NCBI GenBank assembly: GCA_025351875.1
Contig: JANXVA010000408.1
Coordinates: 1-37,243 of the forward strand
Length of the DNA stretch: 37,243 nucleotides
DNA from: Myxococcales bacterium
GTDB taxonomy: Bacteria > Myxococcota_A > Polyangia > Polyangiales > Polyangiaceae
Direction: 5' to 3'
Positions within the stretch are counted from its first letter, which is position 1; each line of letters opens with the position of its first letter. The notes beneath the pieces are model-generated. The model saw only the letters and a list, made by a program, of their open reading frames with translations, ran no database searches and was not told where the DNA came from. The position numbers and the translations under genes are program-made. Shown here piece after piece: positions 1,167 through 8,813 of the stretch.

Positions 1167-2387
1167 ATGGCGATCACCTCGTTGACCTATGAACCTCCGG
1201 TTCGTCGTTCCTCCACGCGGCCGAGCCTCGATTACGAGCTCCTCGAAGCTGCTGTCACCCTGGCCGATGAAGGGCGGCCGCTCGAGTCGCTCCTCAAGGT
1301 CTTCGAGCATCTTCTCCCCGGCGAGAAGGTGCCGGACCTCGCGACGAGCACGTTCTCCTTCACGCAAGGCTCGTCGAAGGTGACGACGCGGATCGAGAAC
1401 GACGACCTCATCATCACCGTTCCGCTCGTGAAGGTGCCGGCCGATGGCCGAGGCATCGCGGCGCTCCGCCACGTCCTCACGCAGATCAGCGCCACCGGCC
1501 AGCTCTATCAACCGCGCTTGAACGGCGACGACATCCGCCTCGAGTTCCGCGATCGCCTCGCGCGCCTGCATCCCGCGAAGGTGCTCGAGGTCCTGAGGGC
1601 GATGCCGGCCGAGGCGGACGAGAACGACGATTTCTTGATCGGGCAGTTCGGCGCGATGCCTCTCGAGCGCGGCGCCGTCGCACCCCTCGACGACGCCGAG
1701 TTCGCACGGGCCGAGGCGATGTGGCGAAGCCACTGGAACGACGTCGAGGAGCTCCTCAAGGAGTGCCAGCGCAAGCGGTCGATGTTCTTCCTCAACGAGA
1801 TGACGGCGTACGCGCTCCATCGCGTGTCCTTCGCGCTGCCGCTCTGTGGGTTCGTCGGGTCGAAGCTCTCGGAGCTCGCGTCGACGTTCAACGACGGCGA
1901 CAACGATCCGACCAAGCGCGAGACCACGCTCGCGAAGTGCGCGAAGGAGATGAAGGCGATCTCCAGCGCAGACCTCCGCAAAAGCATGGGCCACACGACC
2001 TACGCGATCAGCCCGCACGCCGAGGGCACGGCCAACGTTCTCGACGGGTACATCGGCGAGGGCAACTACACCGAGACCATCGAGCGGCTGCGCACCACCG
2101 GCAAGCCGTTCGAGGCCGCGCTCGCGCTCATCAGCACCTACAACTTCCTTCTCAGCCGGTACTCCTGGCCCGAGGAGATCGAGGTCAAGCTCATGGCGGC
2201 TCTCGAGCAGGCGTCCGGAAAGCCGTGGAAGGAGGCCGCGACGATCCTCACCGACCACGCGAAGGCCATCGTGGAGGAGTTCGTCGACGTCGACGACGAA
2301 GACGAAGACGAAGACGAAGACGAAGACGAAGACGAAGACGGCGAAGAAGACGGCGAAGAAGACGAAGAGGACGGTGAGGACGAATGA
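1167..2387 (+). CDS. Uncharacterised protein with YbjN-like N-terminal domain and poly-Asp/Glu tail
   Basis: A 406-residue protein with no signal peptide or membrane segment. Residues of about 20-165 show alternating beta strands and helices (FSFTQG, LIITVPLVKVP, DIRLEFRDRL, LLIGQFGA-like end) that recall the YbjN / type III secretion chaperone-like fold. This is a by-eye resemblance only. The middle (about 170-365) is helical and unrecognised. The last ~30 residues are almost only Asp and Glu, encoded by a perfect hexanucleotide repeat. Its stop overlaps the ATG of the next gene (ATGA at 2384-2387), so it is translationally coupled to a cytosolic trypsin-like protease whose C-terminal part has the same YbjN-like look. 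The pair may therefore bind each other, or this protein may be the substrate or adaptor of the protease. Confidence 0.75.
   Translation: MAITSLTYEPPVRRSSTRPSLDYELLEAAVTLADEGRPLESLLKVFEHLLPGEKVPDLATSTFSFTQGSSKVTTRIENDDLIITVPLVKVPADGRGIAALRHVLTQISATGQLYQPRLNGDDIRLEFRDRLARLHPAKVLEVLRAMPAEADENDDFLIGQFGAMPLERGAVAPLDDAEFARAEAMWRSHWNDVEELLKECQRKRSMFFLNEMTAYALHRVSFALPLCGFVGSKLSELASTFNDGDNDPTKRETTLAKCAKEMKAISSADLRKSMGHTTYAISPHAEGTANVLDGYIGEGNYTETIERLRTTGKPFEAALALISTYNFLLSRYSWPEEIEVKLMAALEQASGKPWKEAATILTDHAKAIVEEFVDVDDEDEDEDEDEDEDEDGEEDGEEDEEDGEDE
2295..2336 (+). repeat. Hexanucleotide tandem repeat GACGAA x7 (in frame)
   Basis: Seven perfect copies of GACGAA, followed by imperfect GAAGAC/GGCGAAGAA units, encode the (Asp-Glu)n tail of the preceding protein. 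The unit is six bases, so slippage would change tail length by two residues without breaking the frame. Confidence 0.9.
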
Positions 2388-3502
2388 GCACCACGCTGGA
2401 CATCGAGTCGCTCGGAGTTTTTCAGGTCTTCACCGGTGGCGGGACCGGCTCGGGGTTCCTGATCGACAACCGCCTCCTCGTGACGAACTGCCACGTCGTC
2501 GCGCCCTTCCAGAAGGTCGCCGTCGAGCGGCGTGACAAGCAGCGCATCGCCGGGACCGTTCGGCGCATCTCCCCCAAGCGCGACCTCGCGATCGTCGAGC
2601 TCTCCGTTCCGCTCGAGGGCGAGCTCCTCGTCCTCGCGCAAGGCGAGGGCCTCGGCGCGAAGCAGACCGTGCACATCGTCGGGTTCCCCGTCGGGCTGCC
2701 GCTCTCGGTGACCGAGGGCGTCATCTCCAACCCGAAGCAGCAGCTCGACGGGCAGCAGTTCGTCCAGACCGACGCCGCGATCAACCCTGGCAACTCGGGA
2801 GGCCCGATCCTCGACGAGCGGAAGCAGGTGGTCGCCGTCACGACCTGCAAGCTCTCCTCGGCCGACATGGTCGGCTTCGGGATCCCCGCCTCCGACGTGC
2901 TCCAGTTCGTCGAGGCCTTCCGCGGCCAGACGGCGCCGTTTGGTGTCGTTTGCCCCTCGTGCGACGATCTGCTCGTCTCCGCGGAGCGCTACTGCAACGG
3001 GTGCGGCTCCGATCTCGAGAGCCTCGAGCTCGAGACGCTCTTCGATCCTCAGCCCGATCATCCCATCGTCAGCTTCGTCGAGAACGGGCTCGCGAAGGCG
3101 AACATCGACCCCTTGCTCGCGCGTCACGGTGAGCACAACTGGTCGTTCCACAGCGGGAGCGCGCCGATCAAGATCTGGTGCTGTTGCTCGGAGCACCTCT
3201 GCTTTTCGTCCCCGCTCGCGGAGGTCGGGAAGCAGAAGCTCGGCGATCTCTTCCGCTTCCTCCTCTCGGACGAGCACGCGCCGTTCTCGTTCGATCTCGC
3301 CGAGAGCACCATCCGCATGAACCTCACGTTTCACATGTCCGACGTGTTCGCGCATGCCGGTACCGACGAGGTCGCCGGGTGGATCGCGAAGTTCATCGCC
3401 TCGGCCGACAAGTTCGACAACGTGCTCGTCGACACCTACGGCTGCGCGCCCGCGCAGGAGACGCAGGTGACGTTCCTGAAGGAACAGAGCGGTCGCCAGT
3501 AG
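2384..3502 (+). CDS. Cytosolic trypsin-like (S1C/HtrA-type) protease with zinc ribbon and YbjN-like C-terminal domain
   Basis: A 372-residue protein. Residues of about 10-180 form a chymotrypsin-fold protease of the DegP/HtrA type with the complete triad: His37 in TNCHVV, Asp67 in RDLAIVEL, and Ser138 in NPGNSGGPI. There is no PDZ domain. There is also no signal peptide or membrane helix, unlike most bacterial HtrA proteins, so it should act in the cytoplasm. A zinc ribbon follows, with two CxxC pairs (Cys190/193 and Cys204/207). Residues of about 226-365 look like a YbjN/type III chaperone-type domain (WSFHSGSAPIKIW, FSFDLAESTIRMNLTFHM). The ATG overlaps the upstream stop (ATGA). A Ser/Thr kinase gene follows 81 nt downstream on the same strand, suggesting one functional unit. 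The substrate is unknown. Confidence 0.85.
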   Translation: MSTTLDIESLGVFQVFTGGGTGSGFLIDNRLLVTNCHVVAPFQKVAVERRDKQRIAGTVRRISPKRDLAIVELSVPLEGELLVLAQGEGLGAKQTVHIVGFPVGLPLSVTEGVISNPKQQLDGQQFVQTDAAINPGNSGGPILDERKQVVAVTTCKLSSADMVGFGIPASDVLQFVEAFRGQTAPFGVVCPSCDDLLVSAERYCNGCGSDLESLELETLFDPQPDHPIVSFVENGLAKANIDPLLARHGEHNWSFHSGSAPIKIWCCCSEHLCFSSPLAEVGKQKLGDLFRFLLSDEHAPFSFDLAESTIRMNLTFHMSDVFAHAGTDEVAGWIAKFIASADKFDNVLVDTYGCAPAQETQVTFLKEQSGRQ

Positions 3503-3573
3503 AGCTCGCTCGACGGCGACACGGAGGGGGGTGAGCCGGCGCGCCCTCCTCCGCCGCCTTCGCAAGTGCGCTA

Positions 3574-3579
3574 TAGAAT
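3574..3579 (+). promoter_or_regulatory. Candidate -10 element TAGAAT just before a GTG start
   Basis: CTATAGAATC lies 4 nt upstream of the chosen kinase start. The same arrangement, a TAGGAT-like hexamer a few bases before the start codon, recurs at several other genes in the window. If it is a promoter, the transcript would be leaderless and the GTG at 3566 would lie upstream of it. No matching -35 box is evident. Confidence 0.4.
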
Positions 3580-3583
3580 CGGC

Positions 3584-5014
3584 GTGAGCACGCCTCCCGA
3601 CCCGAACGCGTCGAAGGCGCTCCGCGGCGGTCGGTACACGCTGGTTCGCAAGCTCGGAGAGGGCTCGCAGGGCGAGACCCACGAGGCGATCGACGAGGGC
3701 GTCGGCCCCGAGGCTCGGCAGCGCGCCGCGCGTGCCGCGCCCCTCGCCGACAAGTGGGCGCGCTACGTTCGCGACCAGCAGAGCGGCGGTGACGTCCCCC
3801 AGGACGCGAGGCTCGTGGCCATCAAGTGTTTTCGCGTGGGCACCGCGAAGGCGTGGAAGGACGTCGAGCTCGCCGAGCGCGAGGCGCGCACGCTCGCGGC
3901 GCTCGATCACCCGCACCTGCCGAAGTACTTCGAGCACTTCGAGGAGGACGGCGCGCTCTACCTGGTGATGGAGAAGATCGAAGGAGAGAGCCTCGCGTCG
4001 CTCCGCAAGAGCTCACGCGCCATGAGCGTCGCGGAGATCACGCGGATGCTCGAGGACATCGGAGGCGCCCTTCGCTACCTCCACGGGCGCGCGCCGCCTG
4101 TCGTGCATCGAGACATCAAGCCGGGCAACATCATCCGCCGTCCCGACGGCTCCTTCGCCCTCGTCGACTTCGGCGCCGTCCGCGATCGCCTGCGGCCCGC
4201 GGGCGGCAGTACGGTCGTCGGGACGTTCGGCTTCATGGCGCCCGAGCAGTTCCAGGGCCGCGCGTCTTCCGCGTCCGACGTGTACGGGCTAGGAGCGACC
4301 GCGCTGACCATGCTCACGGGGACGGAGCCCGAGGACCTTCCCCACGAGGGTCTCGGCATCGACGTAGCTCGCGCGCTGCCGAGAGGAATTCCGGCGCGGC
4401 TCGGTCGGGCGCTCGAGGCGATGCTCGTCGCCGACCCCGATCGCCGGCTCGGGTCCGTCGACGAAGCGCTCGCGATCCTCCACGGTGAGGCGGCGAAGCA
4501 GAAGGAGAAGCAGCGCTCGCCGTCGAAACGCCAACAGCGGAAGCAGCGTCGCGATTCGGCGCGTCGCCGCCGTCCACCGCTCCTCCCGCGGATGCTCGGG
4601 CGCGTCGGGCTCTTCGTCGCGATGCTCGTGGTCTGGGTCACGGTCGGCTTCGCCGTCCCCGTCGTGCTGATCCTCCTCTCGCTGCTCTTCGGCGCCACGC
4701 TGCGCCGCGCGGCGGCGTCGTGCGTCGACGCGGCGAAGCGGAGCCAGGCCGCGCTGGGCCGCGCCTCGATGTGGCTGTCAGGTCATCGCGAGGAGGCGAT
4801 CGCCCTGCGCAAGGAGGACGAGGCCGCGAGGATCCGCGTCGCTCCGGCCCCGGAGCGCGTACGCACAGCGATCGAGGAGAACGTCGAGGCCCCCGCGGAG
4901 GATGCCGACGCGTGGATGGAGGCGCGGCTGGAGAAGGAGGCGCAGCGAGAGCGCATGCGTACACATGCGAGAGCCCCGACGCAGCGCGACACCTTCGGCC
5001 GCAGGAGGAAGTGA
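3584..5014 (+). CDS. Membrane-anchored serine/threonine protein kinase
   Basis: A 476-residue Hanks-type kinase, counted from GTG 3584. The kinase domain covers about residues 18-285, with the glycine loop LGEGSQGETHEA, ATP-binding Lys81 (VAIKCF), catalytic HRDIKPGN at 175-182, DFG at 195-197 and APEQ at 219-222. A long insertion of about 40 residues separates the glycine loop from the Lys strand, which is unusual. A basic stretch (KEKQRSPSKRQQRKQRR) precedes one or two hydrophobic segments at about 340-372 (FVAMLVVWVTVGFAVPVVLILL). An acidic and basic helical tail of about 105 residues follows, so the kinase faces the cytoplasm. GTG 3566 is an alternative start, six codons longer, but it overlaps a likely -10 element. 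It follows the acidic-tail protein and protease genes, and may phosphorylate or be cleaved by them; this is inference from gene order only. Confidence 0.9.
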   Translation: MSTPPDPNASKALRGGRYTLVRKLGEGSQGETHEAIDEGVGPEARQRAARAAPLADKWARYVRDQQSGGDVPQDARLVAIKCFRVGTAKAWKDVELAEREARTLAALDHPHLPKYFEHFEEDGALYLVMEKIEGESLASLRKSSRAMSVAEITRMLEDIGGALRYLHGRAPPVVHRDIKPGNIIRRPDGSFALVDFGAVRDRLRPAGGSTVVGTFGFMAPEQFQGRASSASDVYGLGATALTMLTGTEPEDLPHEGLGIDVARALPRGIPARLGRALEAMLVADPDRRLGSVDEALAILHGEAAKQKEKQRSPSKRQQRKQRRDSARRRRPPLLPRMLGRVGLFVAMLVVWVTVGFAVPVVLILLSLLFGATLRRAAASCVDAAKRSQAALGRASMWLSGHREEAIALRKEDEAARIRVAPAPERVRTAIEENVEAPAEDADAWMEARLEKEAQRERMRTHARAPTQRDTFGRRRK

Positions 5015-7850: not shown

Positions 7851-7882
7851 GCGCCTGATGCGCGGCGCAGTGATTCAGGCGC
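7851..7882. terminator. Candidate bidirectional stem-loop between convergent genes
   Basis: GCGCCTGA (7851-7858) pairs with TCAGGCGC (7875-7882) across a GC-rich loop, between the convergent PilZ and carF genes. The right arm includes the carF stop codon. There is no T-run, so it is at best a weak or Rho-assisted terminator. Confidence 0.35.
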
Positions 7883-8672
7883 CGATGGGCAGCGACGATT
7901 CGGGTTTGTCGCGCGTCTCGTCGGGCTCGGCCGCGACTTCCACGGCGGCCAGCTCGCCGAGGTCGTCGGCGCGGGGAATCGCGCCCGTCACGGCGGTGAT
8001 GATGCGCTCGAGCGTCTCGAAGAAGTGGATCGCGCGGAGCGGCGCGTTCAGCCAGCCGAGGGTGATGCAGTAGTTGCGACGATGCGGCGTCTTGTGATGC
8101 ACCGCATGGTGCCCGGGATGGAGGATGATGCGTGCGTCCTGGAGGAGCCGCACGATGCGCGGCCGCTCCTCGGTGTGGGCCCACTTGTGGATCTGGCTGG
8201 TCCAGGTGTTGACGACGGCGAGCCCGAGCAGTGCCATCCCGAAGAACACATCGAAGCTCGTTGCCGTATCCGGTCTCACCCAGAGCACACCGACCGTGCC
8301 GGGGAGCAGGGAGAGCGCGAAGTTGTGCCCGTTGGTCTCGACGAAATCGTGGTGCGTGATCGCCTTCTCATCGACGTGATGGTGACGGAACGTGCGTATG
8401 GCGAGACGACCGACGATCGGCGTGTCGACGGAGCCCCACGTATCGAACATCCAGTGCACGAAGCCGGACGTGAAGTCGGCCGCGAGGATGCCGATCAACG
8501 CCGCGAGCGTCATCCACCAGAGGGAGACCGGCGCCGACTGGACGATGCGCAGCAGGAGCCAGCAAGCCATGATGACCGCGCCGAAGATCCCACTGAGCTC
8601 ATACGCCCGGTGCGTCTTTTCGTAGCCCGCTTCGAGCGCGGCTGCGTCTCGGTCGTCCCTCTCCAGAGCCAT
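7875..8672 (-). CDS. carF: CarF/TMEM189 family plasmanylethanolamine desaturase
   Basis: A 265-residue membrane protein of the CarF/TMEM189 (PEDS1) family. The family makes the vinyl-ether bond of plasmalogens by desaturating alkyl ether phospholipids; in Myxococcus xanthus CarF is needed for the singlet-oxygen/blue-light carotenoid response. The hallmark histidines are present: FVHW (His73), FRHHHVD (97-99), the ITHHDFVETNGHN block (107-116), IHKWAH (162, 166), HPGHHAVHH (185-193) and a late His216. These are expected to hold a di-iron centre. Hydrophobic segments lie at about 27-45 and 50-70, with more around 118-158. Start ATG 8672 is preceded by AAGGGA at good spacing; the ATG at 8732 is not. 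It is divergent from a CDP-alcohol phosphotransferase gene, which fits a shared ether-lipid pathway. Confidence 0.93.
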   Translation of the reverse strand: MALERDDRDAAALEAGYEKTHRAYELSGIFGAVIMACWLLLRIVQSAPVSLWWMTLAALIGILAADFTSGFVHWMFDTWGSVDTPIVGRLAIRTFRHHHVDEKAITHHDFVETNGHNFALSLLPGTVGVLWVRPDTATSFDVFFGMALLGLAVVNTWTSQIHKWAHTEERPRIVRLLQDARIILHPGHHAVHHKTPHRRNYCITLGWLNAPLRAIHFFETLERIITAVTGAIPRADDLGELAAVEVAAEPDETRDKPESSLPIGA

Positions 8673-8685
8673 CGTTCCCTTTCCG

Positions 8686-8705
8686 TCTCTCGAATAATAG
8701 AGAGA
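8686..8705. promoter_or_regulatory. Inverted repeat upstream of carF
   Basis: TCTCTC (8686-8691) and GAGAGA (8700-8705) are perfect arms around the AT-rich centre GAATAATA. It lies 14-33 nt before the carF ATG and overlaps where a -10 box (TATTAT on the minus strand) could be. It could be an operator, or a hairpin in the carF leader. Confidence 0.4.
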
Positions 8706-8813
8706 ATCGGGCGGCAAGTGACCGCAGATCAAGCACGTTCTGACTTACCTACGCCCGCAGCGTGACATTGGTTCCATCGGGAAAAGGCGTGGAGGTGGGA
8801 CGTTGCGCCACGC

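Follow-up and report, generated by a model that had tools for sequence, protein, structure and literature searches.

An overlapping gene pair in Polyangia combining an HtrA-like protease with two YbjN/CesT-type domains, a candidate cytosolic chaperone-protease

The DNA analysed here (the window) is a 37,243-nt stretch of contig JANXVA010000408.1 from a Myxococcales bacterium of the family Polyangiaceae, whose genome assembly comprises 8.9 Mb in 805 contigs and is 94.75% complete. It carries two overlapping genes, here called A and B. Protein B joins a trypsin-like protease domain of the S1C type to a C4 zinc ribbon and a TY-chaperone domain (the YbjN/CesT fold), while protein A begins with a TY domain of the same fold, followed by a helical domain and an acidic tail. 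The pairing and overlap of the two genes are conserved among relatives, as are the catalytic residues of B in most members. The reading we favour, with a probability of about 0.58, is that A/B is a two-gene, translationally coupled cytosolic chaperone-protease, in which the TY domain replaces PDZ and A acts as a dedicated client-binding partner. Both proteins would then reside in the cytosol and form a complex that delivers clients for proteolysis.

Domain make-up of A and B

An initial annotation, made from the letters of the window, had listed three open reading frames (ORFs): an acidic-tailed protein coupled by an ATGA to a cytosolic trypsin with an intact triad and a zinc ribbon, and a membrane kinase. 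The ORF list and the sequence confirm all three frames, the ATGA common to the stop of A and the start of B, the triad, and the four Cys of the C4 motif at the positions given in Table 1.

HtrA proteases are mainly envelope enzymes that read their clients through PDZ domains, and bacterial members of the HtrA/Deg group are typically exported or membrane-anchored. Protein B resembles DegP, DegQ, DegS and MarP in its S1C fold and His-Asp-Ser triad, and matches the Pfam family Trypsin_2 at an E-value of 1.5e-26. Unlike them, it scores far below the NCBIfam HtrA cut-offs (105.5 bits with the best model, cut-off 416.2) and matches no PDZ family in Pfam at E-values up to 1, the region being occupied by the ribbon and the TY domain; it also has a partner, A. 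A Kyte-Doolittle scan, which alone served as the export test in place of a signal-peptide predictor, gave no membrane or signal-like segment in either protein (highest 19-residue mean in the first 40 starts 1.05 in B and 0.55 in A), and it is from hydropathy that the proposed absence of a signal peptide draws its support.

The TY assignment of both proteins is based on predicted structures, which are single-chain models, on profile-profile comparison and on relatives. The predicted structure of A has the YbjN/CesT fold and order of elements, and the helix-strand order of the B domain matches it. In profile-profile comparison the TY domain of A matches the C-terminal domain of B with a probability of 95.6% (E-value 1.2e-8), and a profile of the B domain built with divergent kin matches the YbjN structure 2plg (E-value 5.4e-6). 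Structures, profiles and the 2plg match thus agree on the shared YbjN/CesT-like domain that had been suspected. The Pfam cut-off for TY-Chap1 or YbjN is reached by the A-type protein of locus L109 (30.0 bits against TY-Chap1, PF22551, cut-off 27) and by L110 and L112, and not by A or B of the window.

Full-length scans gave no trusted Pfam match and no NCBIfam match for A, and the helical domain of the window member has no Pfam match at E-values up to 1. The tail (residues ~375–406) is disordered in the predicted structure and is indeed a poly-Asp/Glu sequence, with 28 of 32 residues Asp or Glu. The tails of 15 relatives are also acidic, their Asp and Glu content ranging between 8 of 34 and 15 of 18 residues (L105, in which A is truncated by a contig edge, was excluded from the A alignment and the tail counts). 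As the window tail is encoded by a regular hexamer array and those of the relatives are less regular, it was probably expanded by slippage.

Table 1. Coordinates of genes A and B, their parts, and the adjacent kinase gene in the window
Feature	Position	Strand	Description
Gene A	1167..2387	+	406 aa: TY-chaperone (YbjN/CesT fold) domain, helical domain, acidic tail
TY-chaperone domain of A	1266..1670	+	aa 34-168; profile-profile match to B C-terminal domain
Helical domain of A	1677..2282	+	aa 171-372; no known family found
CGAAGA hexamer array in A	2291..2368	+	13 copies, 81% matches; codes most of the Asp/Glu tail
ATGA overlap, A stop/B start	2384..2387	+	read from sequence
Gene B	2384..3502	+	372 aa: trypsin-like protease domain (S1C), then C4 zinc ribbon and TY domain
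S1C protease domain of B	2384..2950	+	aa ~1-189; triad His37/Asp67/Ser138
C4 zinc ribbon of B	2951..3004	+	C190, C193, C204, C207
TY-chaperone domain of B	3062..3451	+	aa ~227-356; helix-strand order as in A
Kinase gene	3566..5014	+	63 nt after B; Pkinase E-value 1.8e-34

Pairing, conservation and descent

In the class, 27 genomes hold A and B side by side, 28 pairs in all. Both genes are in view at 17 of the 18 core loci (A being cut in L105), and at the other, L043, B begins 47 nt from a contig edge; the remaining 11 pairs (L106, L108, L109, L111, L140–L146) are divergent. A 4-nt ATGA or GTGA overlap is found in 23 of the 28, even across subfamilies at 21–31% identity. It is present in 13 of 17 core pairs, the rest having spacings of -8, -1, +2 and +23 nt (under automatic start choice), and in all divergent pairs except L108 (10/11). 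The neighbourhood is therefore conserved in relatives, and the close association of the protease with its partner, as envisaged at the outset, has held. One genome, G069, has a second, divergent pair besides its core pair (L145, G069:C419), with an A of the zinc ribbon type and a broken triad in B.

Within the order (183 genomes, the window's own included), A was detected in 10 genomes; the C-terminal part of B was matched in these and, weakly, in one more. A class-wide profile search (317 genomes) matched A in 24 and B in 22, with 19 common to both. These counts are lower bounds: the pair-holding genomes G108, G109, G148–G152 and G177 were unmatched by the class B profile. At the phylum level, 71 of 377 genomes match, mostly little past the zinc ribbon, while 14 places span both ribbon and TY domain and each of these has an A-type gene upstream. 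When conserved B peptides were used to scan 84,980 species genomes, 12 loci were recovered, all assigned to Myxococcota by record title or by contigs identical to those of class genomes. In L107 (G211), A lies at a contig edge. Several candidates were discarded: G033 (E-value 4.6e-4 over ~100 residues, antisense to a long called ORF), G008 and G053 (lone TY proteins that lack the helical part), and G279 and G280 (matches extending little past the ribbon).

The four ribbon Cys are present in 18/18 core B proteins and in all 12 others aligned (the 11 divergent ones and a homologue from Bernardetia sp., see below). The triad is intact in 17/18 core proteins and also in L106, L108, L109, L146 and the Bernardetia protein; the core exception (L105, G246:C113), beside a contig edge, has the catalytic Ser replaced by Ala (GHAGG vs GNSGG). 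Since the ribbon is kept in B proteins with intact and broken triads alike, the frame of ribbon and TY domain, together with partner A, outlasts catalysis.

Two further features of B were observed. Within its TY domain, C267, C268, H271 and C273 (window 3182–3202, residues 267–273) are invariant in 18/18 core proteins and absent as a set from the divergent ones; judged from sequence conservation, they perhaps form a metal or redox site. Cys155 and Cys354 were noted along with them. Core B proteins close, past the folded part, with an almost invariant ETQ(L/V)TFLKE (window 3458–3484), partly below 50 in predicted local distance difference test score (pLDDT <50) in the model; either A or another B might use this segment as a docking peptide.

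The ratio of nonsynonymous to synonymous substitution rates (dN/dS), obtained with a counting method that ignores codon bias, is 0.18 for both A and B against the nearest relative (G127), and 0.20 and 0.25 for L031–L032. It is higher for the more distant pairs L100–L102 (0.51 and 0.35) and L100–L104 (0.71 and 0.52). The low ratios and the class-wide pairing indicate that A/B is more than a chance association. Distances in A and B correlate at 0.84 (16 loci, uncorrected for shared descent).

In the B tree, one copy from family f1 groups with one from family f29 (support 100/99), f1 needs three changes, and a single f1 group was recovered in 0/200 bootstrap trees; this topology hints at transfer between families. 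Carriage by phages or plasmids was considered and rejected, as A was unmatched by tblastn in 72,556 plasmid and 50,697 phage records; no relative of the C-terminal part of B was confirmed in viral contigs. B matched 698 plasmid records, and the 15 matches listed bear general trypsin/HtrA names or no feature. One plasmid match to B (L156) is a PDZ protease and was dropped.

A candidate chaperone-protease and its alternatives

B may be viewed as an HtrA-like protease whose PDZ domains have been swapped for a zinc ribbon and a TY-chaperone domain. According to passages of PMC3575483 and PMC5398634, YbjN proteins and type III secretion system (T3SS) chaperones dimerise, and T3SS clients wind as unstructured chains around the chaperone dimer. 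By analogy with such domains (e.g. the SycN-YscB heterodimer), the TY domain of A would most likely pair with that of B, and their surface would grip unfolded or disordered client segments and pass them to the protease, while the helical domain and acidic tail of A might pick clients or keep them soluble. With two TY domains encoded by overlapping genes, and one of them on a protease, the simplest arrangement would be a heteromeric client receptor on that protease.

Among known TY-chaperones (YbjN, DR1245, AmyR, T3SS class I, TY-Chap1 PF22551), fold and element order are as in A, and the order is as in B; unlike them, the domain shares its chain with a protease in B, and in A it is followed by a helical domain and acidic tail. 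The Trypsin-Trypco pairs of MoxR-vWA conflict systems, as presented in passages of Kaur et al. 2020 (PMC7159879), likewise consist of a trypsin-like peptidase with a dedicated neighbour gene, whereas partner A is a TY-chaperone and nine neighbour genes, from eight loci, contain no vWA or MoxR match in Pfam. A had no Trypco match in the Pfam scan, the presence of Trypco models in that library being unchecked. The word 'trypsin' was not found in passages of PMC9503650, nor 'YbjN' in those of PMC7159879. A full-text search, outside which most subscription literature lies, returned no paper combining 'trypsin-like peptidase' and 'YbjN', and searches of titles and abstract starts gave no description of this A-B make-up, in line with the first impression that no such system had been described.

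Several points weigh against the chaperone-protease. The A-B complex and its clients are putative, the predicted structures being of single chains. Full-length A and B of the window match no Pfam YbjN or TY-Chap family at E-values up to 1, nor do the N-terminal piece of A and the C-terminal piece of B at up to 5. The structure search with B was dominated by HtrA chains, so its TY fold is reached through element order and 2plg. The helical domain of core A shows no detectable relation to that of zinc ribbon A (profile-profile probability 1.6%). Bernardetia sp. has a trypsin-zinc ribbon-TY-like protein (WP_338791029.1) that aligns with B over its full length (29% over 366 aa) and retains triad and ribbon. 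No A-type gene adjoins it, and a search of its 602-kb plasmid, run with no positive control, brought up no match to A, so a B gene need not have an A linked to it. Two plasmid searches with divergent B gave no second full-length match of this kind among the 10 matches listed of each. Lastly, 8 of 29 B proteins, namely one core member (L105) and seven divergent ones (L111, L140–L145), have a broken triad, so proteolysis is not universal, and binding may count more than cutting in some lineages. It is possible, if somewhat doubtful, that A/B represents a new class of cytosolic chaperone-coupled proteases, with the TY fold as client module of an HtrA and a second copy as receptor, which became a two-receptor peptide-binding complex where the protease died.

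Alternatively, A might be the inhibitor or substrate of B in a conflict module (defence or self-killing), silencing the protease by TY-TY contact until a signal removes A. The patchy spread of A (10/183 genomes of the order, 24/317 of the class), the changing neighbours and the grouping of the f1 and f29 copies would suit such a module, and passages of PMC9503650 describe TY-Chap families (TY-Chap1 among them) in ADP-ribose-centred conflict systems, those of PMC7159879 other such systems whose trypsins come with a dedicated partner domain. We nevertheless consider it unlikely: A has no PADLOC match at E-values up to 0.01, B there scores best against the trypsin components of other systems, A was unmatched in the plasmid and phage records, no relative of the C-terminal part of B was confirmed in viral contigs, the nine neighbour genes include no Pfam defence family, and a pair that outlives catalysis would suit a toxic protease poorly.

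A further alternative is that the pair is mainly a peptide-binding scaffold, whose protease fold binds and for which cutting is optional. Pairing is kept in all eight cases of triad loss, with the 4-nt overlap retained in all seven divergent ones, and passages of PMC7159879 report other systems in which an inactive trypsin occupies the effector position. The retention of the triad in nearly all core proteins, four divergent ones and Bernardetia argues instead for selection on catalysis in the lineage of the window, and a scaffold appears unlikely.

Neighbouring genes and implications

The kinase gene lies on the same strand as B, co-transcription is possible in this genome, and downstream of B a Pkinase gene lies 890 nt away in L030 and an ABC1-type gene 388 nt away in L029; yet a module of three genes in which the membrane kinase acts as sensor, as initially proposed, is very improbable, because the kinase is the next called gene in 0/17 core relatives and its kin occur in genomes without detected A/B. 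It is not next to B even in a congener whose A and B are 85% and 89% identical to those of the window. Kin (E-value up to 1e-60) are present in 10/12 congeneric genomes (its own included) and in 7 of the 8 without detected A/B, are lacking in G119, which has A/B, and in G125 and G127 sit on contigs other than that of A/B. The kinase thus does not seem to belong to the pair and is regarded as an unrelated neighbour. Its HRDIK and DFG motifs are retained, and a single hydrophobic stretch lies at about 338–384. About 50 residues separate its glycine loop (GEGSQG, 31) from VAIK (84), and it strongly matches the PADLOC PD-T4-6 kinase (E-value 1.3e-51), which may merely reflect general kinase similarity.

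A conserved third gene of any kind was not seen across the 18 core loci, with neighbour genes called by a rough script and the L031 contig ending ~0.5 kb past B. The next called gene is on the opposite strand in 11/18, an antisense call comes first in L030, and the same-strand follower differs among the remaining 6/18 (window included), being in relatives a DUF6184, ABC1-type, AraC-type regulator, peptidoglycan-binding or AIR carboxylase gene. The nine neighbour genes scanned, to which the search was limited, include no secretion system or effector gene of the kind beside which T3SS class I chaperones are encoded. Further along the window, 7875–8732 encodes a Lipid_desat protein (PF10520, E-value 6.7e-56), which we take to be of the family of the plasmanylethanolamine desaturase CarF/TMEM189.

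If the chaperone-protease reading is correct, A/B would be a cytosolic HtrA variant that reads its clients via a YbjN/T3SS-type chaperone domain and is coupled to a partner of the same fold. The TY fold, so far known for secretion and stress partners, would then have been recruited to a protease, which would assign a definite task to the YbjN-type proteins, still poorly understood. With just two proteins, the pair would also be a simple system in which to study how a protease is fed by a chaperone domain, and natural dead-triad members allow binding to be separated from cutting.
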